A stretch of 46,505 nt of DNA, taken from the IMG/VR virus record IMGVR_UViG_3300009168_000058, positions 1-46,505 of that record; one strand, written 5' to 3'. The translations under genes and the position numbers were made by a program. The stretch is from a virus. Under the pieces are notes generated by a model. It ran no database searches. It saw nothing but the letters and a program-made list of their open reading frames with translations, and had not been told where the DNA came from. Numbering within the stretch: position 1 is the first letter of the stretch; every line of letters begins with the position of its first letter. Below, piece by piece: positions 4,200 through 46,505 of this stretch.

Positions 4200-5408
4200 A
4201 TGAAAAATAACAATCGTAACAACCAATATTTTATATATAGTTTAATTTGCTTGGTAGCAGGATTATTTATATCTACAATTTCTGGAGTGTATACATTTCA
4301 AATGTATTATGATTTAGGATTTAATACATTTGATAAACTATTAACGGGAATTGTAGGAATAATGTTCGACTTAGGAAAGGTAGTCTTCCCTATCCTGCTA
4401 GGGATAGCTTTTAGAAAAAAAGAACCAGCAAAAATTATAGTATTTGGATTGTTGTTGATATTTTGCTTGGTAAACAGTTTTATTGCCAGCCAAGGACGAG
4501 ATTTAAATGTTTCAGCAACTTATCAAGCCGAAGCAGATTCGCAGTCAACAGTTAAAAATAATAACGAAGTAGCAATAAAAGCAAAACAGAAAGAAATAGA
4601 AGCAATTTCGTCAAGCATAAACAGCATGATTGACGAAAAAAACAAGTTACCAAAAAATTATATTACAGCAAAAAATAATAAGCAAAAAGAAATAAATAAT
4701 ATGAACAATAAGTTGTCATCATTGACGAACGAATTAAAAATACTTACATCAATGAATTATTCAGGAACTGGAATAGTAACAAAAGGATTGTTCCAGCTTG
4801 CAAAGTATTTTAGTCCGGCTGAACCAGAAAAAATAATTGGCAAGATTGCTATTGTTAAAAATATTATGCAAGAAATTCTGGCTATAGCGTTTTTAATCGG
4901 ATTTTCTTTACTAAGGAAAATAGAAATTGAACCAGAGCCTAAAAAAGAAATTGAATTTAATAATAATAAAGATAACGATAGCAATAATCATGAAAACAAT
5001 GACAATGAAGAGAAAAAAGATGGTGGCTCTTCCCTACCTCAGAAAAATAAAAAGAAGTTTAAAATTAAAAGAAAATTAAAAGAAAAAAATAAAACCGTAG
5101 CAGCTGAAAATAAAACTGAAAAATCAACAACGATTAAACATGATAAACAGGTTGACGGCTCGGAAAATTTAATTAGATTTATGGAATATATTTTTGATGA
5201 AATTGATAAAGATAATTATTGCCCTGGTAAGAGAAAAATAAAAGAACATTTAGAGTTAACTTATAGGGAAATCGATCTGATTTGGGAAAAGTTAAGGCAA
5301 TTTAAAATAATAAAACTAGAGAAAGTAAATAACATAACAAAAACAAAAGCAATAAAGAATAGGGAAGAGGCCCTCAAGATTATTTCAAGAAAAGAGGAAA
5401 ACATATGA
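4200..5408 (+). CDS. Multi-span membrane protein with C-terminal winged helix, 402 residues
   Basis: ATG at 4200 after AAAGGAG at 4184-4190. The order is: three or so N-terminal membrane spans (IYSLICLVAGLFISTISGVY; VGIMFDLGKVVFPILLGIAF; IIVFGLLLIFCLVNSFIAS), a coiled-coil stretch (residues 115-185), another membrane segment (IVKNIMQEILAIAFLIGFSLL), a long Asn/Asp/Lys-rich linker, and a C-terminal winged-helix-like domain (LIRFMEYIFDEIDKD...REIDLIWEKLRQFKII). The same plan occurs in the reverse-strand gene 41842-42795 next to the FtsK-like translocase. That suggests a membrane-tethered DNA-binding factor. Function is unknown; conjugation-like DNA handling or prophage maintenance is conceivable. 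Confidence 0.7.
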   Translation: MKNNNRNNQYFIYSLICLVAGLFISTISGVYTFQMYYDLGFNTFDKLLTGIVGIMFDLGKVVFPILLGIAFRKKEPAKIIVFGLLLIFCLVNSFIASQGRDLNVSATYQAEADSQSTVKNNNEVAIKAKQKEIEAISSSINSMIDEKNKLPKNYITAKNNKQKEINNMNNKLSSLTNELKILTSMNYSGTGIVTKGLFQLAKYFSPAEPEKIIGKIAIVKNIMQEILAIAFLIGFSLLRKIEIEPEPKKEIEFNNNKDNDSNNHENNDNEEKKDGGSSLPQKNKKKFKIKRKLKEKNKTVAAENKTEKSTTIKHDKQVDGSENLIRFMEYIFDEIDKDNYCPGKRKIKEHLELTYREIDLIWEKLRQFKIIKLEKVNNITKTKAIKNREEALKIISRKEENI

Positions 5409-9089: not shown

Positions 9090-9689
9090 TTATTTTATTA
9101 AACTTAATAATCTAGTTATATCATCGGACTTGTGTCCGTCCCATTCTGGAGCAGTGAGTATTTCACCAACATTAAAATAATCCCAGTACTGCATATGATA
9201 ATGATAAGTAAATTGGCCTTCCTTTGTATTGATGCCGACGATAAAATAATTTTCAAACATTGTTCCATCATTATGAAGTTTACTTTTCCATGAAATATCC
9301 TTGTTTTGTTTACAAATGATTGAAAATAGTATCATTCTATGAAAATATAATTCTTCAAAAGTGTGGTATCCATCAGAAATTTTCTGTTTATCCAATCCAT
9401 CACAGTTTATATTTATTCTGTCATTATAATTATCATACTCAATAATTTTGCAAAAATTTAAATCTACCATTTGATAACCCTCCATTAATTTTTTCTTTTC
9501 TTTATCCGGCAGCCCTGAAACATATCGGATATCTATTATTTTCTTTATTTCATTAATAATATTATCTCTGTCATAATATCCAGAATCACCAAGACTAATA
9601 TCTCTCTCGATATTTTTTATCAAAAAATAAATTTGATAAAATTTATTTTTATATTCTTCAACAGTAAGCATTTTCTTTTCACAACCCAT
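9090..9689 (-). CDS. WDGH-motif phage protein, 199 residues
   Basis: The protein has the conserved pattern of a widespread phage protein family of unknown function: SDGYHTFEELYFHRMILFS, then WKSKLHNDGTMFENYFIVGI, QFTYHYHMQYWDYF and the end motif APEWDGHKSDDI. The start ATG at 9689 overlaps the upstream gene by 11 bp; an internal ATG at 9671 is an alternative. Histidines and acidic residues in the conserved blocks suggest an active or metal-binding site, but no activity is proven. It lies beside the small RNA and points toward it, ending in the shared terminator. Confidence 0.7.
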   Translation of the reverse strand: MGCEKKMLTVEEYKNKFYQIYFLIKNIERDISLGDSGYYDRDNIINEIKKIIDIRYVSGLPDKEKKKLMEGYQMVDLNFCKIIEYDNYNDRININCDGLDKQKISDGYHTFEELYFHRMILFSIICKQNKDISWKSKLHNDGTMFENYFIVGINTKEGQFTYHYHMQYWDYFNVGEILTAPEWDGHKSDDITRLLSLIK

Positions 9690-12620: not shown

Positions 12621-12643
12621 AGCCGAAAGGCTTATTTTTTTTT
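12621..12643 (+). terminator. Rho-independent terminator of accessory operon
   Basis: AGCC-GAAA-GGCT followed by TATTTTTTTTT; same stem and loop as at 6663-6683. Confidence 0.85.
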
Positions 12644-13327: not shown

Positions 13328-13864
13328 ATGATATGTTTTCCGATTATGCATAAACAGACAATTAAAAAAGTAATAAGATTATCATACAAAGTAGATACTA
13401 AATATGGAGTTATGGCAGAGCTTATGTTTAGCTGTGGATATAGAATGTGTGATGTCATAGATTTGAAAAAAATGCACATTTGTAATGGTTCAGTCGTGAC
13501 TCTTTTTTTTGAAGAGAAAAAAACTAAAGCAAAAAGGTGTTTCAATCACGCTGATATGCCGCAATCCGCAATTGAGTATATCTTAGGACTAGGGTCACGA
13601 GACTACTTATTTCCAAGAAGTTTGTATAGTAAAAAAGGTAAATTATATCATATATCAGCAAGTAGAGTAAAACAGGTATTTAGGGAAATATTTTCTAGTA
13701 TACCAAAACTACGCGGAGCATATGGAACGCATATATTTAGAAAAACATTTGCATATAATGAATTTAAAAAAGGTGATATATACAGAGTTAAGAGGAAATT
13801 AGGACATAAAAATATAAATTCAACAATAAAATATTTACCAGAGGAAATATTTATGAATGAGTGA
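13328..13864 (+). CDS. Core-only tyrosine recombinase, 178 residues
   Basis: ATG 13328 after TTGGAGGA (13311-13318). It holds the catalytic set of the phage-integrase/Xer family: the first Arg in CGYRMCDVIDLK, HIFR (H-x-x-R), the LGHKNINSTIKYL end with His and the nucleophilic Tyr. The N-terminal DNA-binding domains are absent (about 180 residues instead of 300-400). The gene overlaps TerS by 8 bp, so it belongs to the packaging operon. It may help late-gene control, concatemer or dimer processing, or be a shortened integrase; the large serine integrase at 43435 is the better candidate for lysogeny. Confidence 0.75.
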   Translation: MICFPIMHKQTIKKVIRLSYKVDTKYGVMAELMFSCGYRMCDVIDLKKMHICNGSVVTLFFEEKKTKAKRCFNHADMPQSAIEYILGLGSRDYLFPRSLYSKKGKLYHISASRVKQVFREIFSSIPKLRGAYGTHIFRKTFAYNEFKKGDIYRVKRKLGHKNINSTIKYLPEEIFMNE

Positions 13865-36320: not shown

Positions 36321-36617
36321 ATGTATAATTTTGTAATAAGTGCGTTATATATTGCAATAATAATTGTTTCTATGTGTGCTACAAGTGCGCTTATAGCTGT
36401 TTTGATATACTTGTATAAAGTTACAAGCAGATTTTTCGAAATTTTAAAAGTGATAAAATATTATAGTTTTGAAAACTCAAAAAAACTTAAAAATATGAGT
36501 CAAGAAATTGCAAATATTAGAATTAAAGCAGAAAATTTAAATAATGAAGAAAATACAGTAATTGACTATGACAAAGAAATCAAAAGAAATGCAAATATTA
36601 GAAAGGTGATAAAATGA
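36321..36617 (+). CDS. Membrane protein with cytoplasmic helix, 98 residues
   Basis: ATG 36321 after AAAAAGGGTG. One or two N-terminal spans (FVISALYIAIIIVSMCATSALIAVLIYLY), then a long charged helix (KKLKNMSQEIANIRIKAENLNNEEN). It overlaps the amidase start by 4 bp, so it belongs to the lysis cassette; perhaps a second holin or spanin-like regulator. The gap 36222-36320 holds a leader with AT-rich direct repeats only. Confidence 0.55.
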   Translation: MYNFVISALYIAIIIVSMCATSALIAVLIYLYKVTSRFFEILKVIKYYSFENSKKLKNMSQEIANIRIKAENLNNEENTVIDYDKEIKRNANIRKVIK

Positions 36618-37285
36618 AATCAGTATATTTGAGTCCATCAACACAAGAAAAAAACATAGGTTATGGCAATTATGGAACTGAAGAGTATAGAGCTAACCAA
36701 ATTGCCGATATAACAGAAAAAATATTAAAAGAATATGGCATAACTGTATACAGAAATAAACCTGAGATGACATTGACTCAGGTTGTTACTGATAGCAATA
36801 ATAAGAATCCAATTATACATTTTGCTATACATACTAATGCTAATGCTGGCAAATCTCGAGGTTGTGAAGTATTTTGTCACAAAAGCACTGGGGAAGGTCA
36901 TAGACTAGCAAAAGAAATTTACACAAAAATATCTAATCTTACTCCAAGCTCTGATAGAGGAATTAAGCAAGGACATAATTTCTATGGACAGGGAAAACAT
37001 ATGTACGAATTATATAGTACAAATTCCCCAGCTGCTTTGGTAGAAGTTGCTTTTCACGATAATAAAGATGATTCTGAGTGGATTATTGAAAACATAGAAA
37101 AAATAGGCATAGAACTAGCAAAAGGAATTCTTGTGTATTTTGGCATAACTTACAAAGAAAAGGCAGAAAAAAATATTAAATACAGAATAATTGCAGGTAC
37201 TTACAGCAACAAAAATAATGCAGAAAATCAAATTAAAACGCTCAAAAATGCTGGATTTGATTGTTTTATTGAGGAGTTAAAATGA
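36614..37285 (+). CDS. N-acetylmuramoyl-L-alanine amidase with SPOR-like tail, 223 residues
   Basis: Amidase_3 family of the clostridial LSPSTQ subtype: VYLSPSTQEKN, the metal-binding Glu in YGTEEYRAN, HFAIHTNAN, and the catalytic Glu in ALVEVAFHDN. Residues 187-223 form a SPOR-like repeat (KYRIIAGTYSNKNNAENQIKTLKNAG), which binds bare glycan strands at septa. It is the endolysin that cuts the bond between muramic acid and L-alanine. It overlaps the membrane protein gene upstream and the MazG-like gene downstream. Confidence 0.9.
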   Translation: MKSVYLSPSTQEKNIGYGNYGTEEYRANQIADITEKILKEYGITVYRNKPEMTLTQVVTDSNNKNPIIHFAIHTNANAGKSRGCEVFCHKSTGEGHRLAKEIYTKISNLTPSSDRGIKQGHNFYGQGKHMYELYSTNSPAALVEVAFHDNKDDSEWIIENIEKIGIELAKGILVYFGITYKEKAEKNIKYRIIAGTYSNKNNAENQIKTLKNAGFDCFIEELK

Positions 37286-38377: not shown

Positions 38378-38399
38378 GGAGTAGCTTTTGAGCTACTCC
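38378..38399 (-). terminator. Terminator of the FtsK-like operon
   Basis: Read on the reverse strand: GGAGTAGCT-CAAA-AGCTACTCC followed by GTTTTAGTTT. It lies 10 bp after the stop of the gene at 38410-38601. Confidence 0.85.
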
Positions 38400-38409
38400 C
38401 TCCTTATGT

Positions 38410-38601
38410 CTATTTTTTTACTATTCCTTTTATTTTGCTAATTGGTATAAAATTGTCTTCCTTGTCGCTCAAAATAGCAACTATTGCACCAACTATTATA
38501 ATTAAAATCATTATTTTCCAATGTTCTACAAATATTTGTATTCCTTTTCTGAGTATTGCACTTTCTTTTAATAAGTTTAAAACTTCTTTTAATTCTTCCA
38601 T
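38410..38601 (-). CDS. Small membrane protein, 63 residues
   Basis: ATG at 38601 on the reverse strand, directly after the translocase stop (1-bp gap), with GGAAGGAATG as ribosome site inside that gene. A helical start (EELKEVLNLLKESAILRKG), one span (IMILIIIVGAIVAILS) and a short basic end. Last gene of the reverse operon; may support the translocase. Confidence 0.6.
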   Translation of the reverse strand: MEELKEVLNLLKESAILRKGIQIFVEHWKIMILIIIVGAIVAILSDKEDNFIPISKIKGIVKK

Positions 38602-38602
38602 T

Positions 38603-40648
38603 TTAAATCATTCCTTCCAAAAAATTATCCCATTTTTCGTTATTCAAATTGATTAAAAATTTTGTTCCATTTGCAATTATTAAATTTTCTTCTTTTGCTT
38701 TTCCTAATAATACATCTCTTTCGTATTCTCCAAAATTATCCATATAATCATTAATTATTTTTGATGATGGTATGATGTTTTTTTCATTTCTGAACTGGAA
38801 AATCACGTTAAGAAATTTCAAATATCTGGAATCTGTATTGGCTGGGTTAGTTTCCGAATCAGAAAATGTATTCTTTTCTAAGGATATTTTGTTTTCATCG
38901 TGTAGATTTTTAAACCTGTTAACGCAGTCTATTACTTCATTTGAAAATGGTTTTATAATTAGCATATTTTTTTCTAAGTTAGCAGAAACCGCTAACACTT
39001 CTCCTTTACCTTTGTTAATTTTTGTTAGTAGTATTTTACTAAACAAATTATATATATGACTAAAATAATTGACATTTTTCTTATGTTTTTTAGACTTTTG
39101 TTTAATTATATTTCCAACTGCAATAATACATTCGTCTTTGTTGTTTTCCAAATATTCGTTATCTTTTGTCATTAAATTGCTTAACTTTTCAAAAATTTTA
39201 TTACATTCTGGGAGACCCTCTTCTTCATCTGCTTCCTCTTGAATTAGCAAACCTTTATATATATCGCTATATTTCTTAAAATTTGTCATAAATTCAGCTG
39301 TTTTGAGTTCTTGCGTTCCTGTTACTCCTGTCATTTTTTGCGTTTCAATTGCTTTTCCAACATTAGTACTAATTTTAAAAGGCACTAACCTTCTAATATC
39401 AGTATCTAATATTTCTCCGCTTGGTGTTTGAGTTGCCATTACAACGCTTATTCCTAATGCCCTTGCAATTGTAAGCAATTTTTTAAGCTTATCAATTACT
39501 GTCGTGTTATCATCTTTTGATTTTTCCTTGTCTAATTTTAGATCTCCAATTTCGTCAATAACTAAAATTATGAATGGCATTTTTTTAGATGAAAATCTTT
39601 TATTATATTGATTTATGTCTGAAACATTATTTTTCTTTAAAATTTCTGCCCTATCTTTCATTTCTTCAAATAGTAAATCAAGTATTTTCTTAAATTCTTT
39701 TTGATTACTTACAGTTACACAGTTTCTAAACTTAGAGTATTTGTACATTTCTATTTCATATTTAAAATCAACAAGTATGCATACAACATTGTTATCAAAA
39801 CAAAATAAGCTTTGTAATATCATATTTATTAAATTGCTTTTTCCTCCACCAGTAACGCCAGAGATAAGCATATGTTTTATTTCTGCAAAATCAATAACTA
39901 ATAGTGCTTCATCTTCTTTTATTCCAAACAAAAACGGAACTTTTGTTTTGCTAGTATCAGCACATGCAACATAATCTTGAAACCTATAAAATTTTTTAAA
40001 TTTAGTATCAATTTTAAATACTATGTTCATGTATTTAAAATTTCCTGTTTGCCTACTTATATTGTTTATATCCCTATTTAATTTTATTTCTAGTATTTCT
40101 TTTTTATCTATTAAATGTTTACAAGTAAAATCCGAGCTAAAAGCTGTCAAAATATTTTGTTGCTCTTTTACTATCTGTAACCTATTATCAAACATTTCAC
40201 AAATATACTTATATTTATTACAAAGCATATCTATTTTTTTCTTTTTAATTGTCGAAATTATTAAATCATTAATAGAAATTAACACTCCTTTTAATAAAAA
40301 ATAACTTAATAATCCTATTATTAAACATATATAAAACCTATAACCTTTGTACAACAGTAATCCTAAGCTAATAATTGCAAGAGAGATAAATAAATATCTC
40401 TCTTTAGTTGCAAGTAATTGTTTCAAATTACTTGGTTTAAGCTGGATTAACATATTTATTACAATTTTTTTTATCATAAAAATTACTGCATTTAAAAATA
40501 TTTTGAGTAAATTACATATTTGTTTTTTTAGCTTATCCATACCTTTTCCAATTAATTTACTTATTAATTTACTTACTTCTTTTCTTCCTGTCTTTGTTGC
40601 TAATATAATTATTATTCCAATAATTAATAATCCAATTATGCTATCCAT
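38603..40648 (-). CDS. FtsK/SpoIIIE/TcpA-like DNA translocase, 681 residues
   Basis: Membrane spans in residues 1-125 (SIIGLLIIGIIIILA; YLFISLAIISLGLLLY; FYICLIIGLLSYFLL). Motor domain with Walker A GVTGGGKS (264-271) and Walker B ILVIDEIGDL (361-370), the sensor stretch VMATQTPSGEILDTDIRRLVPFKI in outline. The end (about 600-681) forms a winged-helix-like part (FLNVIFQFRNEKNIIPSSKII; GKAKEENLIIAN). It is nearest to coupling proteins of Gram-positive conjugative elements (TcpA/Orf21) and to FtsK. It could move phage or prophage DNA, or be a plasmid-derived remnant. Unusual in a podovirus-type genome. Confidence 0.85.
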   Translation of the reverse strand: MDSIIGLLIIGIIIILATKTGRKEVSKLISKLIGKGMDKLKKQICNLLKIFLNAVIFMIKKIVINMLIQLKPSNLKQLLATKERYLFISLAIISLGLLLYKGYRFYICLIIGLLSYFLLKGVLISINDLIISTIKKKKIDMLCNKYKYICEMFDNRLQIVKEQQNILTAFSSDFTCKHLIDKKEILEIKLNRDINNISRQTGNFKYMNIVFKIDTKFKKFYRFQDYVACADTSKTKVPFLFGIKEDEALLVIDFAEIKHMLISGVTGGGKSNLINMILQSLFCFDNNVVCILVDFKYEIEMYKYSKFRNCVTVSNQKEFKKILDLLFEEMKDRAEILKKNNVSDINQYNKRFSSKKMPFIILVIDEIGDLKLDKEKSKDDNTTVIDKLKKLLTIARALGISVVMATQTPSGEILDTDIRRLVPFKISTNVGKAIETQKMTGVTGTQELKTAEFMTNFKKYSDIYKGLLIQEEADEEEGLPECNKIFEKLSNLMTKDNEYLENNKDECIIAVGNIIKQKSKKHKKNVNYFSHIYNLFSKILLTKINKGKGEVLAVSANLEKNMLIIKPFSNEVIDCVNRFKNLHDENKISLEKNTFSDSETNPANTDSRYLKFLNVIFQFRNEKNIIPSSKIINDYMDNFGEYERDVLLGKAKEENLIIANGTKFLINLNNEKWDNFLEGMI

Positions 40649-40851
40649 TACTTAATCCCACCTTTCAAAAGTTCTTTAGCTAGATCAACAACACTATTTC
40701 CAGCAAGGTATAACAAACTAATATCATTCATAACAGCTAATAATACGCAACTACAAAGCACTAGTATTCCGGCATCTTTAAATTTTCCTTTTACAATATT
40801 CCAAAAAGCAACTAATAATACTAATGTTGCTATCAAATTTGTCATAATCAA
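40648..40851 (-). CDS. Two-span membrane protein, 67 residues
   Basis: ATG at 40851 overlaps the upstream gene's stop by 4 bp, and its stop shares a base with the translocase start. Two spans (MTNLIATLVLLVAFWNIV; AGILVLCSCVLLAVMNDISLLYLAG) and a short amphipathic end. The size and place recall small partner proteins of TcpA-type operons. Function unknown. Confidence 0.62.
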   Translation of the reverse strand: MIMTNLIATLVLLVAFWNIVKGKFKDAGILVLCSCVLLAVMNDISLLYLAGNSVVDLAKELLKGGIK

Positions 40852-41144
40852 TTCTCCTCCCCTGTTTTCACTACTAATCTTCCATTTACTTTAATAATCT
40901 CAAAATTGCCTTTTTCAATCGCTGCCTTCTCAATTGCTATTTTTTCTTGTTTTTCTTTTAATTCTTTTCTTTTATTTTTAATTCTAACTATTTTCCAGTA
41001 TACTGTTTCCATCAAATCCTTGTGCTTACCATTCGTAAAAAAATATACTGAGTAAAAGAGTATTCCAAAACCTATGAAGAAAGGCGACATTGCAAGTATT
41101 ATCATTAGTGTTGCTTGTACCAGTAAGTTTAATAAGTCTAACAC
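40848..41144 (-). CDS. Membrane protein with charged helix, 98 residues
   Basis: ATG at 41144 overlaps the upstream stop (41138). Two spans near the start (LLVQATLMIILAMSPFFIGFGILFYSVYFF), followed by a charged helix (RIKNKRKELKEKQEKIAIEKAAIEKG) and a short beta end (IIKVNGRLVVKTGEE). Part of the reverse operon; no family recognised. Confidence 0.6.
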   Translation of the reverse strand: MLDLLNLLVQATLMIILAMSPFFIGFGILFYSVYFFTNGKHKDLMETVYWKIVRIKNKRKELKEKQEKIAIEKAAIEKGNFEIIKVNGRLVVKTGEEN

Positions 41145-41344
41145 TTCCCTAACCTCCCTACCATTACACAGTATTTCTTTTTTATCTTATCAATTGCCTC
41201 ATTACTTGTTATCTTTCCTTCGAGAAACTGACGATTTATTTCAATTGCTGCTTCACTTGGTTGTAAAAATTCATGATTCATTGTTGCGAGTGTTTGCCTT
41301 TCTATATCTTGTATTTCCTTATCTGTCAAATTATTAATTTTCAT
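41138..41344 (-). CDS. VbhA-like antitoxin-domain protein, 68 residues
   Basis: ATG at 41344 preceded by GGAGGG on the reverse strand; an earlier TTG at 41359 is less likely. The helices AIEINRQFLEGKITSNEAIDKIKKKY match the VbhA antitoxin domain pattern (xxE(A)xxxxxxFxxGxIsxxEAixxIkxxY), known as the inhibitor of Fic toxins but also present alone in Gram-positive mobile elements. No Fic gene with HPFx(D/E)GNGR is in this window, so it may act on a host Fic protein or have another role. Confidence 0.65.
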   Translation of the reverse strand: MKINNLTDKEIQDIERQTLATMNHEFLQPSEAAIEINRQFLEGKITSNEAIDKIKKKYCVMVGRLGKC

Positions 41345-41375
41345 TACAATTCCCTCCAAATTTTTATTTACTTTT

Positions 41376-41422
41376 GCCCTTGGAGGAACTATAATAAAAA
41401 TATCTATAGTTCTTCCAAGGGC
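41376..41422. promoter_or_regulatory. Long hairpin in front of the VbhA-like gene
   Basis: GCCCTTGGAGGAACTATA (41376-41393) pairs with TATAGTTCTTCCAAGGGC (41405-41422): 18 bp with one wobble. On the + strand it is followed by TTTTTAG, like a terminator. On the - strand it lies in the reverse operon between two genes and contains a buried GGAGGAAC-like ribosome sequence, so it may tune expression of the downstream part. Confidence 0.6.
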
Positions 41423-41449
41423 TTTTTAGAGATTAGGAAATGTTTTTGC

Positions 41450-41641
41450 TTACAGGCTGGCATTTCCTTTTAATATTGCACAAATACTATCTAGCTCATT
41501 GTCACTTAAATTAACATTTATGCTATGTACATAATTCCCATTAATTTTTACATATAGAGAGTTATTTGTTACTTTGTACTGTTTTTTATCAATGCTAAAT
41601 TCAAAATTGTTATTTTTATTAAGTATTTCCTTCATTGTCAT
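41450..41641 (-). CDS. Small protein, 63 residues, unknown
   Basis: ATG at 41641, 7 nt after GGAGGTG on the reverse strand. Beta-type pattern (FEFSIDKKQYKVTNNSLYVKINGNYVHSINVNLSDNELDSICAIL in outline) and a final small helix. Overlaps the upstream gene by 23 bp. Probably structural partner in the reverse operon; no family. Confidence 0.55.
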   Translation of the reverse strand: MTMKEILNKNNNFEFSIDKKQYKVTNNSLYVKINGNYVHSINVNLSDNELDSICAILKGNASL

Positions 41642-41864
41642 TGTTTACACCTCCTGTATTCAAACTTTCAAGCACATCAATTTCAGTATCATTGTAGTAA
41701 TCTAATATCCATCCAATCAATTTTAATGTTTCTGTACTTAAGAAATTTATTCTATAAAATGCTTGATTATTGTGAAATATTTTAGGCAGTATATTTGCCG
41801 TATCAAATAGTGCTTTGTTTATTACCTTGAAATTTGATTCATTAGTTCTTAATCTTAGATACAT
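41619..41864 (-). CDS. Small protein, 81 residues, unknown
   Basis: ATG at 41864 after AAAGGAG, overlapping the upstream membrane/winged-helix gene by 23 bp. It shows LRLRTNESNFKVINKALFDTANILPKIFHNNQAFYRINFLS in outline and an acidic tail. Both overlaps show tight coupling in the reverse operon. No family recognised. Confidence 0.55.
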   Translation of the reverse strand: MYLRLRTNESNFKVINKALFDTANILPKIFHNNQAFYRINFLSTETLKLIGWILDYYNDTEIDVLESLNTGGVNNDNEGNT

Positions 41865-42795
41865 TTTTCTTGTTCTCCTTTGTATTTACAAAAGTTGTTT
41901 TTCCTTTTGTTGTAATAAATCCTTCTTCTTCCAACTTTTTCTTTGCTGACTGGATAACTTTTCTTTTTAATCCAGCCAGTTCCATTAAAGCTGTTACACT
42001 TGGGGCTATATCGACATCCTTATAGCTCCAAATTGTATTTCTTATCAATTCCAAATCTTTGTTCGAACAAAGATTATCAATATTTTCATTCTCATTATTT
42101 GTTATATTTTCTATATTTTCAATTTCTTCTATTGCTGTTTCTTTTTGTTCTACCAAAGATTCAGGAAATTTCAATAACTTTAAATCTGGTTTTTGCTGTA
42201 TTTCTTTCATTTCTTTTACTTTAACTTCTTGTGCATTTTCTTGTACATTCTTTGTATAATCAATATTTGCTAGTTTCATATTTTCTAAGTATTTTTGCTC
42301 TATCCTGTATTTCCATCCAAATATCAAATTACTAAAAAGCTTTGATACAATACTTTTGTCATTATCATTATTGTCACTCCTGAAAGAATAATTCAAAAAT
42401 ATTCTATCTACAGCTAATTTAAGACCTACAATTGTTCCATATTCAACAAGTATGCACATTATGAAAGTTATTATTTTTATTAACAGTCCATTTTTGCCAA
42501 GATTTATAAAGAAGAATTGGCTATTTAAAAATATAATTACAATTAAAAGTCCATACTGCAATAATTTTGCCTGCCTATAGTGCCTATTAAAGTTGTTTTT
42601 AATTGCAGTTTCGAAACTGCTAACCATAAAAATTGATATCTGCACATATATTGTAAATGCAATGAATGCATACATTTCGCTACCTGTAAATAATTCTAAT
42701 TCTGAAAAAATTGAAACTGCACAACTGGCACAAGCACCAGCCAAACAAACAATAAATAATATAATTCCACTCATTACAGTAAAGATTTTACTCAT
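41842..42795 (-). CDS. Multi-span membrane protein with C-terminal winged helix, 317 residues
   Basis: ATG at 42795 after GTGAGAAAATG context (GGTGAG on the reverse strand). About four spans (TVMSGIILFIVCLAGACASCAV; MYAFIAFTIYVQISIFMV; LLQYGLLIVIIFLNSQFFFI; IKIITFIMCILVEYGTIVGL), a charged linker rich in E and N, and a winged-helix end (IRNTIWSYKDVDIAPSVTALMELAGLKRKVIQSAKKKLEEEGFI in outline). The plan matches the forward gene 4200-5408. As first large gene of the FtsK-like operon it may be its membrane or DNA-docking partner. Confidence 0.68.
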   Translation of the reverse strand: MSKIFTVMSGIILFIVCLAGACASCAVSIFSELELFTGSEMYAFIAFTIYVQISIFMVSSFETAIKNNFNRHYRQAKLLQYGLLIVIIFLNSQFFFINLGKNGLLIKIITFIMCILVEYGTIVGLKLAVDRIFLNYSFRSDNNDNDKSIVSKLFSNLIFGWKYRIEQKYLENMKLANIDYTKNVQENAQEVKVKEMKEIQQKPDLKLLKFPESLVEQKETAIEEIENIENITNNENENIDNLCSNKDLELIRNTIWSYKDVDIAPSVTALMELAGLKRKVIQSAKKKLEEEGFITTKGKTTFVNTKENKKNVSKIKN

Positions 42796-42920
42796 TTTCT
42801 CACCTCATTTTTTTATTTCTATTTTGCACATATCCTTAACCGTCCTTTAAATTTATGATATAATTACACTTACTTTGCTAAAGTAAATGTAAGCACAAAA
42901 GACTTATTGGTTTATGGTTC

Positions 42921-42955
42921 AGAAGATAACTCCGTAAAAGGGGTTATCTTCTTTT
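42921..42955 (+). terminator. Hairpin at the border of two reverse operons
   Basis: AGAAGATAAC and GTTATCTTCT (10 bp) around a loop with CC/GG pairs, followed by TTTT on the + strand. It lies between the 42-residue gene (ending 42959) and the reverse operon start. The gap 42796-42958 also holds a TTACTTTGCTAAAGTAA dyad (42871-42887) near a TATAAT-like box and is probably the promoter area of the FtsK-like operon. Confidence 0.55.
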
Positions 42956-42958
42956 ACA

Positions 42959-43087
42959 TTAGGCAAATTCCTTGATTGTTACATTTTTTCTGCCTTTACT
43001 TTCCCATTCTCTTTTTAATTCCTCTGCCTCTTCCAGCGTCGGACGTTCTTCTAATGTACCATTTCCATCATCAACCATGTAACACAT
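42959..43087 (-). CDS. Tiny charged protein, 42 residues
   Basis: ATG at 43087, after AAGGAGGTGG on the reverse strand, among the strongest ribosome sites in the window. The product (YMVDDGNGTLEERPTLEEAEELKREW) ends with a basic turn and FA. Probably a small regulator or inhibitor. No family. Confidence 0.55.
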   Translation of the reverse strand: MCYMVDDGNGTLEERPTLEEAEELKREWESKGRKNVTIKEFA

Positions 43088-43147
43088 ATTATCCACCTCC
43101 TTGTTATTATAATTATTATGTGGACTCTCTCCCATAAATTATAATAG

Positions 43148-43351
43148 CTAAATATTTTGAACCCCGATTTTTGAGTATAAATCAATCATTCCAAACTCTC
43201 TTATCGCCCTTCTCATTAGCCATTTTATAAATTTCGTTTGATCTGTTTGCATTGCAAGCATATCCAAAACATCTTTATCTAGTATTGGATTACATTTAAA
43301 TGTTTTATATATTACTTTTGGCTCTCCGTCTTGTTTTTTCTTACTTGCCAT
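43148..43351 (-). CDS. Ribbon-helix-helix-like small protein, 67 residues
   Basis: ATG at 43351 after TTAGGAGGAAAATT on the reverse strand. The pattern KVIYKTFKCNPILDKDVLDMLAMQTDQTKFIKWLMRRAIREFG (in outline) gives strand-helix-helix, like small RHH proteins of plasmids that act in copy control or partition. It leads the reverse block together with the 42-residue protein. Could keep an extrachromosomal prophage stable; not proven. Confidence 0.55.
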   Translation of the reverse strand: MASKKKQDGEPKVIYKTFKCNPILDKDVLDMLAMQTDQTKFIKWLMRRAIREFGMIDLYSKIGVQNI

Positions 43352-43434
43352 TTAATTTTCCTCCTAACGTTTTCCTAATTATAACATATGTGATTACAAA
43401 AGTAAATACTAAATTATAAAAAAAATAAAATAGG

Positions 43435-44850
43435 CTATAACGCCCTTTTATCCACAAACACAATTTCCATTATTCCATTTTTGTCTATATAAATTTTTTC
43501 TACTACACTTTTTAAAATTTCTCTTTTCTGGCAAATATCATCTGTAAAAATAAAAGTATCCCAAATGGATAATAAATTTTCTTTTGGATCCTCAATATCA
43601 AATTTATGTTCACCCATATTTTTAAGTTCAATTTCAATCTGGACTTTTTCATTCTCCAACTGCAACTTTTTTTCTTTTGCTTCAGCAATCGAAAAAATTC
43701 CTGCCAAAAATCCATCTTGTACCCTCGAAATTTCTGCAGGTATTTTGTCCAATCTTCTTTCTAAAATATCCCTTGTATTATCAGTGTTAATTTTGGGAAC
43801 AAAGTTTATAATTCCGTCTAAGAATTCTTTTAAAATACATTCAATTTCATGTTCTATTTTTTCTACTCTATATAATTTGGTGCAATCACAAGCACCAGTA
43901 TATCTCAATGCCCTTCCACAGCAATAATATTTAACCTGTTTATTCCCACTCTGAGTAATTCGCATATTAGCACCACATTTGCCACAATACAATATTGTCA
44001 ATAAGTAATAATTGTACCATCTTTCAGAACGGCGACTTATAATAGGCCCGTCGTGATTTATATAATTACAACATCGTCTTTCTCTTAATTCTCGTTGGAC
44101 TCTACCAAATATTTCTTTACTAATAATAGCCTGGTGTTCTCCTTTATATATTTCATTATTATATTGTAACTTACCTATATATTTAGGATTTTTTAAAATC
44201 CTTCGAATTGTTGGAGCTTCAAATATTTTCCCTTTTCTAGTGTAGATATTATTATCTAACAGATACCTTATTATTTTTTGAATACCAACCCCAGATAGAT
44301 ACTTTTCATATATCAATTTAATAATTCTTGCTTCATCTTCATTTATGACTAATTTTTTATCTATCATATTGTAACCATATACACTAGCGCCGTGATTTAA
44401 TCCTTTTTCAGCTACCATGTACCGCTGAGATTTTTTCACATGCTGTGCTAAATTCAATAGTCTCCATTCTGCCAGTCCTTGCATAATTAATTTTTGAAAG
44501 AATCCTGATGGACTATTATCGATTTTTTCAGTTATGGAGATAACTGTTATATTATTTTTCTTCAATTTATCTTCTAAAGACTTTGATAATTCATAATTTG
44601 AAGCAAATCTACTATATTCATGAACTAGAATCATGTCAAAGCATTTATTTTCTGAATCCTGTATCATCCTCTTAAATCCTGGTCTTTTGTCATTTTTTGA
44701 ACTGTATCCCTCGTCTATATATTTTTTGAATATCTCTATATTATTTTTTAAACAATAGTTTTCTAATTCGTTTAATTGTGCAGCTATTGAAAAATTATCA
44801 ATTTGCATTTCAGAACTTACTCTTGCATAAATTGCAGCTTTCATATTCAT
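43435..44850 (-). CDS. int: Large serine recombinase (integrase), 471 residues
   Basis: Start chosen at ATG 44850 (MNMKAAIYARVSSEMQ); a TTG at 44898 lies in a palindrome. Catalytic domain: AIYARVSSEM (nucleophile Ser), QLNELENYC, YSRFASNYELSKSLE. Recombinase domain with GVGIQKIIRYLLDNNIYTRKGK and the PTIRRILKNPKYIG stretch; zinc ribbon CGKCGAN...YYCCGRALRYTGACDC; coiled-coil end. Integrates phage DNA into a host att site without a need for supercoiling. The attP should lie near; the reverse-strand operon ends here, so it is expressed alone from a promoter near 44940. Confidence 0.9.
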   Translation of the reverse strand: MNMKAAIYARVSSEMQIDNFSIAAQLNELENYCLKNNIEIFKKYIDEGYSSKNDKRPGFKRMIQDSENKCFDMILVHEYSRFASNYELSKSLEDKLKKNNITVISITEKIDNSPSGFFQKLIMQGLAEWRLLNLAQHVKKSQRYMVAEKGLNHGASVYGYNMIDKKLVINEDEARIIKLIYEKYLSGVGIQKIIRYLLDNNIYTRKGKIFEAPTIRRILKNPKYIGKLQYNNEIYKGEHQAIISKEIFGRVQRELRERRCCNYINHDGPIISRRSERWYNYYLLTILYCGKCGANMRITQSGNKQVKYYCCGRALRYTGACDCTKLYRVEKIEHEIECILKEFLDGIINFVPKINTDNTRDILERRLDKIPAEISRVQDGFLAGIFSIAEAKEKKLQLENEKVQIEIELKNMGEHKFDIEDPKENLLSIWDTFIFTDDICQKREILKSVVEKIYIDKNGIMEIVFVDKRAL

Positions 44851-44892
44851 ATTTTGTAAAAATTTATCCTTTCTTGTAATATTTTTGAGATT

Positions 44893-44906
44893 GTGCAAAT
44901 TTGCAC
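44893..44906. promoter_or_regulatory. Perfect palindrome upstream of integrase gene
   Basis: GTGCAAATTTGCAC, 14 bp, with a CATAAT-like -10 element close by on both strands. It could be an operator for the integrase gene or a part of attP. No repeat of it was found elsewhere by eye. Confidence 0.45.
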
Positions 44907-44961: not shown

Positions 44962-45114
44962 ATGAAAAATATATATGAATATACTGATTTTGGTGATAAA
45001 TTTAAATATTTACCTGGAATCATAGATAGCAGTAATAAAAAAATATATATAAACAAAAGATGTTCTAATAAAAAAATTAATTTCTTTCTCTTAAATTTTT
45101 TAAAAGTTCAATGA
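44962..45114 (+). pseudogene. Short ORF, possible remnant of an ImmA/IrrE-type gene, 50 residues
   Basis: ATG 44962 after GGAGGAG (44950-44956), a strong ribosome site. It reads DFGDKFKYLPGIIDSSNKKI followed by YINKRCSNKKI, similar to the stretch that precedes the HExxH helix in ImmA/IrrE metalloproteases, but it stops before any such helix. Its end overlaps the repressor gene on the other strand by 38 bp. It may be a remnant, or a small gene of its own. Confidence 0.35.
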
Positions 45115-45400
45115 TATTATCTATGTCATTAACCGTGACCTTTTCTTTTTTTGCTTTATCTATGACCGCAATAAAATCCACATTTTTATTTAATTCTCTT
45201 ATATTAGTATTTCCAAGTAGATAATCAATTGACACATCAAAAAAATTTGCTAATTTTATTATTTTATCTAAATCAGGCTCTCTTTTGCCTATCTCATATC
45301 CCGTAATTGTATGCCTGCTTACTCCGATTTTTTTAGCCAAGTCTTCCTGTCTCATTTCCTTTTCTAACCTTAATTCTTTTAATCTATCTTTGAAGTCCAT
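45077..45400 (-). CDS. CI-like phage repressor, 107 residues
   Basis: ATG at 45400 on the reverse strand with TAGGAGT upstream. HTH_3 domain at residues 3-60 (LKELRLEKEMRQEDLAKKIGVSRHTITGYEIGKREPDLDKIIKLANFF in outline), then a short dimerisation helix (VNDIDNIIELLKNL). It lacks a LexA-type peptidase domain, so induction is not by RecA self-cleavage. Its promoter (TTGCAA, 16 bp, TATAAT) lies at 45434-45461. It is divergent from the Cro-like gene and would keep lysogeny. Confidence 0.85.
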   Translation of the reverse strand: MDFKDRLKELRLEKEMRQEDLAKKIGVSRHTITGYEIGKREPDLDKIIKLANFFDVSIDYLLGNTNIRELNKNVDFIAVIDKAKKEKVTVNDIDNIIELLKNLRERN

Positions 45401-45433: not shown

Positions 45434-45461
45434 ATTATACTACACAAAGATTAAATTGCAA
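45434..45461 (-). promoter_or_regulatory. Repressor promoter (PRM-like)
   Basis: On the reverse strand TTGCAA (45456-45461) and TATAAT (45434-45439) are 16 bp apart, about 30 bp before the repressor start. An operator (45474-45495) lies just upstream of its -35 box. Confidence 0.7.
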
Positions 45462-45473
45462 AATATGAATATT

Positions 45474-45495
45474 AAATATGTAAAAAAACATATTT
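45474..45495. promoter_or_regulatory. Operator 1 (AAATATGT-N6-ACATATTT)
   Basis: Perfect 8-bp arms around AAAAAA in the divergent promoter region. The ATGT...ACAT core is shared with the two 19-bp operators downstream. Confidence 0.65.
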
Positions 45496-45499
45496 AGTA

Positions 45500-45528
45500 T
45501 TGACATGTGGCAAAATCACACATATAAT
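45500..45528 (+). promoter_or_regulatory. Early rightward promoter (PR-like)
   Basis: TTGACA (45500-45505), 17-bp spacer, TATAAT (45523-45528), both consensus. The spacer is entirely occupied by operator 2 (45505-45523), so repressor binding must block it. It drives the Cro-like gene and probably the initiator. Confidence 0.88.
45505..45523. promoter_or_regulatory. Operator 2 in PR spacer
   Basis: ATGTGGCAAAATCACACAT; matches operator 3 at 16 of 19 positions, with ATGTG...CACAT dyad ends. Confidence 0.75.
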
Positions 45529-46118: not shown

Positions 46119-46505
46119 ATGGCAGACAAAATAAGAATGGAAGTACCATTTTTTCAAACACCTAACAGAATTTTTGAAGTTGATGGATTAACAGAACATG
46201 AATTAATTACCTATATGTACTTATGTAGGTGTGGAAATAATGGTGGAGCTGCTTTCCCGTCTTATAATGATATTGGGAACAAAACAAAAACATCTCAAAA
46301 AACAGCACAAAGAGCAATAGAAGGACTAATAGACAAAGGTCTTATAATTAAACATAATCGAAAAGGAAAAAGCAAAAATGGCAATATTGTTAATATTTCA
46401 AACATTTATGAAGTAAATATAAATTTAGATACCCATGGTCAGACAGACCATACCCCCATAGTCAGACAAACCATACCCCATGATCAGACAGCACATACAC
46501 CCATA
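46119..46505 (+). CDS. Replication initiator / replisome organiser, N-terminal part (continues at 6)
   Basis: ATG 46119 after AAGGAGG (46104-46110). Residues 1-95 form a winged helix of the helix_turn_helix_36 kind: PNRIFEVDGLTEHELITYMYLC, FPSYNDIGNKTKTSQKTAQRAIEGLIDKGLI and a basic wing. The frame stays open to the last base of the window (129 codons) and enters the tandem repeats at 46433. It continues at base 6 when the 5-bp overlap is removed. It binds the origin iterons inside its own gene and recruits helicase; the role is inferred from domain and context. Confidence 0.85.
   Translation, partial: MADKIRMEVPFFQTPNRIFEVDGLTEHELITYMYLCRCGNNGGAAFPSYNDIGNKTKTSQKTAQRAIEGLIDKGLIIKHNRKGKSKNGNIVNISNIYEVNINLDTHGQTDHTPIVRQTIPHDQTAHTPI
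46433..46505 (+). repeat. Iteron-like tandem repeats, left part of array
   Basis: Units at 46433, 46456, 46478 and a partial one at 46501, spaced 23, 22 and 23 bp. The third is degenerate (CCATGATCAGACAGCACAT). The partial unit (46501-46505) is identical to bases 1-5, which gives the circular junction. With 1-86 the array has seven units. Confidence 0.9.

Follow-up and report, generated by a model that had tools for sequence, protein, structure and literature searches.

Introduction

Compact gene cassettes built around an FtsK-type DNA motor have already been seen in Gram-positive phages and other elements, where a short gene accompanies an FtsK of about 380-430 aa (pBac41, L011; pLW1071, L014; Eoghan, L015; Priestia, L106; and a prophage, L024). 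In several of these cassettes a replication-relaxation gene comes after FtsK, and the two lie side by side in pBac41, pLW1071 and Eoghan; the protein that follows FtsK has no Pfam hit in L024 and is annotated as hypothetical in L106. The Bacillus Tyroviruses have been described as carrying a plasmid-like block (gp11-18) with ParM, a possible ribbon-helix-helix (RHH) protein, a protein of the type IV secretion system type and a replication-relaxation protein (PMC9703825). FtsK-type motors occur in many phages, and a literature search found no paper testing their function there. Here I describe a cassette with an FtsK/TcpA-superfamily DNA translocase that lies between the lysis genes and the serine integrase of IMGVR_UViG_3300009168_000058, a viral contig whose full length of 46,505 bases was analysed (the window). 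An earlier, sequence-only reading took this cassette for a conjugation- or plasmid-like operon. I tentatively prefer to regard its product as a DNA pump that would be made in the lysogen and act on the phage's own DNA.

Results

The cassette encodes a translocase of 681 aa (38603..40648, reverse strand) that matches PF01580 (FtsK_SpoIIIE) with an E value of 3e-18, at 66.5 bits against a cut-off of 24. Its Walker A (GVTGGGKS) and Walker B (VIDEIGDL) motifs keep the invariant Walker residues. In an AF2 model, computed from an alignment of the translocase with 47 other viral sequences, residues about 221-450 reach a pLDDT of mostly about 90 and the remainder is poor, so that the protein has one confident domain, the motor. 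The fold matches, which were listed by VIA-align for residues 184-459 only, place E. coli FtsK (Z 26.6) and TcpA (Z 25.6) in a tie for best. By sequence, the best matches in the PDB are TcpA entries (65.5 bits), with FtsK (52.4 bits) and also YukB behind. Profile, motifs and fold assign the translocase to the FtsK/SpoIIIE superfamily, and the 681-residue DNA motor with Walker motifs that had been proposed from the letters alone holds up. That this motor is membrane-bound is a prediction: four spans are predicted within its first 125 residues, by hydropathy, as are the spans of all the cassette proteins discussed below.

The position of the translocase within the superfamily is less clear. The sequence-only reading had called for a phylogeny against TcpA, Orf21 and FtsK. 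In the tree the branch of the translocase is very long and attaches with support to no group; it falls outside the starred clade of three chromosomal SpoIIIE sequences, although a placement inside is not rejected (p 0.14). Grouping with Orf21 is unsupported (p 0.07, in a tree that contained no TcpA row), and for the long FtsK-like proteins of Bacillus Herelleviridae the test neither favours nor rejects a common group (p 0.35). A clade with the replication-relaxation group at first seemed to be rejected, but this result was discarded, as it vanished after two rows were added and two long rows dropped (p 0.54). Three records, L013, L018 and L020, carry a plasmid or bacteriophage label, but the gene that matches FtsK in each is a chromosomal SpoIIIE with host genes around it; they were used as chromosomal SpoIIIE regions. 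Close relatives of the translocase were absent from genome_contigs, and viral_contigs gave one contig, which is the same phage; for the regions outside the motor no relative was found.

The translocase is one of ten reverse-strand genes arranged in three blocks (38410-43351). The sequence-only reading had reported eight overlapping reverse genes here; the reverse genes are present, but they number ten and fall into blocks. The lysis genes reach about 37.6 kb; two short open frames on the reverse strand lie before the cassette, at 37.6-37.9 kb. Once starts are corrected, all ten genes have a purine-rich ribosome-binding site before them. Block 1 consists of a 67-aa gene that is RHH-like by eye only (43148..43351, with the ribosome-binding site AGGAGG) and a 42-aa acidic protein (42959..43087), the start of which was moved from 43135 to the ATG at 43087, preceded by a strong AGGAGGTGG. 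Block 2 encodes proteins of 317 aa (41842..42795), 81 aa (41619..41864) and 63 aa (41450..41641), with neighbours overlapping by 23 bases. Block 3 runs from a VbhA-like protein of 68 aa (41138..41344; start corrected to the ATG at 41344, with GGAGGG before it) through proteins of 98 aa (40848..41144) and 67 aa (40648..40851) to the translocase and a last protein of 63 aa (38410..38601); its genes overlap by 7, 4 and 1 bases and then leave a 1-base gap.

The gaps between blocks measure 163 and 105 bases and each holds a strong hairpin. The one between blocks 1 and 2 (42921..42952) has 13 pairs and is terminator-like on the plus strand (RNA fold z -4.9), and the one between blocks 2 and 3 (41376..41422) is long, with an RNA fold of -27.6 kcal/mol (z -6.2). 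A further terminator-like hairpin lies 3' of the last cassette gene on the reverse strand (38378..38399, z -6.1). At the other end, the 83-base gap between the integrase and the first gene holds a reverse-strand promoter-like site (43378..43406; 10/12, extended -10), which is counted as weak because the scan picks up about as many of them in shuffled DNA (69 in the real sequence, 62 in shuffles). Together, the hairpins and the weak promoter-like site suggest that the cassette is its own transcription unit.

Most of the partner proteins are small. The 317-aa protein, which the sequence-only reading called a membrane/winged-helix protein, has four predicted spans, but its C-terminal helix-turn-helix is weak (HTH_36, E 9e-4, below the cut-off), and a fold claim was dropped as the model has a pLDDT of 45; a search of phages, plasmids and viral contigs found relatives only in the same phage. 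Two spans are predicted in the 67-aa protein of block 3 and one each in the 98-aa and last 63-aa proteins. The 81-aa and 63-aa proteins of block 2 have no predicted span and no known family by hydropathy and profile scans. The VbhA likeness is below threshold: the 68-aa protein scores 21.4 of the required 25.9 bits against PF18495 (E 2.5e-4), lacks the [ST]xxxE[GN] motif and has no match in plasmids, and a Fic motif is absent from all six frames of the window. The [ST]xxxE[GN] motif is the inhibitory motif of VbhA antitoxins. A scan of 50 FtsK-bearing records for the VbhA family gave no match anywhere and carries no weight. Nor does the RHH-like label of the 67-aa first gene find profile support, as it has no match in the profile libraries. 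The remaining partners, searched by profile libraries only, have no relatives there, and no PADLOC defence model matched any partner protein scanned.

The slot that holds the cassette can be compared with that of one distant relative (L111), found through its large virion protein (26% identity over residues 815-1713, E 3e-41). Gene order in L111 is as in the window: the virion protein, short membrane-type genes, an amidase, a serine integrase and a repressor, the last two on the reverse strand. Only 39 bp part the end of the amidase from the integrase in L111, leaving the slot empty, and the 20-kb contig has no FtsK domain; in the window the same slot holds 5 to 6 kb. Because the slot is empty in this one relative, the cassette looks accessory (moron-type).

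A sibling contig, IMGVR_UViG_3300027743_000068, encodes the same proteins through the cassette and also matches at the integrase end. It is the same phage and provides no independent evidence on the cassette. From window position 12642 the two are identical over at least 13.4 kb to the right, and to the left of that point they differ sharply, which is why the early region looks mosaic; an integration junction at the sibling's divergent end was judged less likely. An inverted repeat (AAAAGTATAATTAT ... ATAATTATACTTTT) immediately follows the point of divergence. Podophages related by terminase were not found in genome_contigs, and viral_contigs gave two short contigs at 66% and a third, weak one; the only relatives of the integrase belong to the same phage.

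The conjugation operon proposed by the sequence-only reading was not recovered. The genome has no match to the relaxase families PF02486 (Rep_trans), PF03432 (Relaxase) and PF01076 (Mob_Pre), other families and an oriT not having been sought, and none to the replication-relaxation family PF13814, in searches to which the control genomes respond weakly for some families. In six frames the translocase holds the sole GxxxxGK[ST] P-loop, and because of this no VirB4-type ATPase, or other second P-loop, is seen. As far as tested, the genome encodes no conjugation machine of its own, and the idea of a phage-ICE (integrative and conjugative element) hybrid gained no further support. An FtsK/TcpA-like gene in a phage is, alone, not evidence of conjugation.

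After a motif scan, FtsK-type motors were confirmed in 50 of the 50 records searched. A replication-relaxation gene was present in 2 of 50 FtsK-bearing viruses; at that sensitivity the pairing of the two is not general. Among other viral records, three (L031:4753-6747, L065:4603-6672 and L099:4627-6645) encode a fusion protein of a PD-(D/E)XK nuclease with FtsK_alpha and an FtsK motor. The preceding gene is RecT by Pfam in L065, and L031 and L099 each have a gene a short way upstream that is RecT-like by eye only; these fusions are possibly the motor-driven exonuclease of a recombination pair.

The window itself (GC about 25-38%) is a temperate podophage with a P22-type portal, judging by its gene content: P22-type head genes (portal PF16510, E 2.5e-19), a small terminase that is Sf6-like with a score below the cut-off, RecT, an endolysin, a serine integrase and a CI-type repressor. 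Its host is likely a low-GC Gram-positive bacterium. The record carries 23-base repeats at its two ends, both of which fall inside one gene, a replication initiator on the forward strand (46119..46505, continuing at 6-506) that reads as a 295-aa open frame across the record ends after removal of an exact 5-base end overlap. Because this frame continues across the ends, the genome is probably circular or terminally redundant and opened by assembly within the repeats. Helix-turn-helix proteins on plasmid records, 17 of 26 of them from Clostridioides, are similar to the initiator in its N-terminal part.

Across the slot from the integrase lies the lysis module with its endolysin (36614..37285, forward strand; phrog_435, E 1.5e-32). 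On the other flank, outside the cassette, are the large serine integrase of 487 aa (43435..44898, reverse strand; PF00239, PF07508, PF13408) and an RstR-like, CI-type repressor (45077..45400, reverse strand; PF01381 E 6e-19; NF041951 E 7e-22, slightly under the cut-off). Between the repressor and the next forward gene (45434-45528) there are divergent promoter-like sites, including a 12/12 site at 45500-45528, and an inverted repeat; the region looks like a canonical lysogeny switch.

The early region holds several further genes. A 402-aa protein without family (4200-5408) shows what look like membrane spans and, at its C-terminus, a possible helix-turn-helix, a layout like that of the 317-aa cassette protein. 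Homology among the possible winged helices of the FtsK C-terminus, the 317-aa and the 402-aa proteins was considered and set aside, as the comparison of FtsK with the 402-aa protein alone was clearly above shuffles (4/500), which is insufficient. A PAPS-reductase-like protein, slightly under the cut-off, is followed by one with a CxxxCxxC motif (601-2396), perhaps a modification pair, and a WDGH-domain protein (PF25311, E 1.5e-42) is encoded on the reverse strand of the variable early region (9090-9689).

Discussion

What might such a motor do in a temperate phage? The motor domain with its intact Walker motifs, the gene layout and the absence of the cassette from the slot of one distant relative are observed. 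From there I favour, with somewhat less than even confidence, a DNA pump made in the lysogen and acting on the phage's own DNA, most simply for segregation; its substrate, timing and purpose are inferred. A prophage that moves or segregates its own DNA was among the options named by the sequence-only reading. The accessory cassette in the lysis/integrase slot would probably be expressed in the lysogen, because it lies on the same strand as the repressor and integrase. Its product would be a membrane-anchored double-stranded DNA translocase, presumably a hexameric ring, accompanied by small membrane partners, and the 317-aa membrane protein with its possible winged helix may tether or choose the DNA. 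The translocase could then act on the phage's circular DNA in the host, for example by clearing or segregating it across a division septum or spore septum as the septum closes. A stronger version I consider quite improbable: the phage would possess its own membrane-anchored pump, a dedicated membrane partner would recognise the phage DNA, and in the lysogen the pump would drive the genome through the division or spore septum. If true, this version would add a further mode of prophage inheritance to integration and ParA/ParM-type partition.

Several observations weigh against segregation. With a complete serine integrase the phage may be integrated in the lysogen, where segregation would be unnecessary, and the genome showed no partition gene. 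The same two observations weigh against the phage-plasmid proposed by the sequence-only reading, in favour of which the record looks circular and its initiator resembles proteins of plasmid records. A Pfam scan of the translocase to E 1 gave no match to FtsK_4TM, FtsK_alpha or FtsK_gamma at the profile level, and the same tool detects FtsK_alpha in other viral proteins. Octamers like the known FtsK/SpoIIIE guides (KOPS/SRS-like) are almost absent, the counts being too few to judge. Finally, the searches made leave the partner genes as orphans, and the comparison with L111 is a distant one, at 26% in the one large protein compared.

The translocase could instead be a coupling protein by which excised phage DNA reaches the mating channel of a co-resident conjugative element, as in integrative mobilisable elements. 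The lead of TcpA over FtsK among PDB sequence matches and the TcpA fold match fit this, and Tn916-type neighbours (L107) pair such a motor with MobT, but the genome encodes no Rep_trans, Relaxase or Mob_Pre protein, structure gives TcpA no edge over FtsK, and the Orf21 grouping is unsupported; mobilisation is doubtful. I would call it similarly unlikely that the cassette serves superinfection exclusion or defence, its membrane proteins and motor blocking or diverting incoming phage DNA in the lysogen. Its slot is typical for lysogeny genes, it encodes several small predicted membrane proteins, and the PADLOC models SspH, mad8 and HerA match the motor; these matches, however, are confined to the common motor domain, and the scanned partners match no defence model.

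Multimer resolution is a poor candidate. The translocase would here work with the phage's small tyrosine recombinase to resolve genome dimers, as FtsK and XerCD do at dif. The recombinase is a 178-aa domain protein (13328-13864; Phage_integrase, E 1e-12) beside terS, and a gene that resembles it by eye occupies the same place in L004 and L005, but it lies about 25 kb from the translocase, beside the terminase genes, and the short L004 and L005 pieces examined contain no FtsK. A role in virion assembly, packaging or DNA ejection is the least probable of all: viral packaging ATPases do appear among the weaker fold matches (STIV B204, Z about 12.7), but the late genes lie on the other strand from the cassette, the phage has a terminase and a P22-type portal, and the L111 slot lacks the cassette. 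In this respect the sequence-only reading, which argued against virion assembly, was right, as no virion role is evident.

Having set these alternatives beside segregation by a lysogen-made pump, I return to the known systems. Such a gene set is not without precedent, given the FtsK cassettes in a similar slot of other Gram-positive elements and the plasmid-like block of the Tyroviruses (PMC9703825). The Tyrovirus block, compared by description only, is alike in placing plasmid-type DNA-handling genes, including a possible RHH gene, in a temperate phage; it differs in that no ParM-like or replication-relaxation gene is seen in the window. TcpA, the conjugation coupling protein of pCW3, is the best sequence match in the PDB and shares the motor fold, whereas the window lacks a relaxase of the three tested families and a mating-channel ATPase. 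The FtsK/SpoIIIE chromosome translocases share the motor fold and, with the window protein, four predicted N-terminal spans, but the latter has no FtsK_4TM, alpha or gamma profile match and falls outside the starred SpoIIIE clade. The long FtsK-like proteins of Bacillus Herelleviridae (P59, L017) are of similar length, and the top tblastn matches in the phage collection come from such phages, which are, however, large and lytic-type.

The Gram-positive FtsK cassettes share the FtsK-type motor, the position after the lysis genes (L011, L024) and the neighbouring integrase (L011). The window differs in its motor of 681 aa with predicted spans, in lacking a PF13814 protein and in its orphan partners. 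Because FtsK cassettes occupy a similar slot in other Gram-positive elements, the cassette is a divergent variant of a kind already seen in Gram-positive phages and elements. It is compact and apparently optional, with membrane partners and no conjugation genes, so that gain or loss of a single cassette could be used to test its effect.

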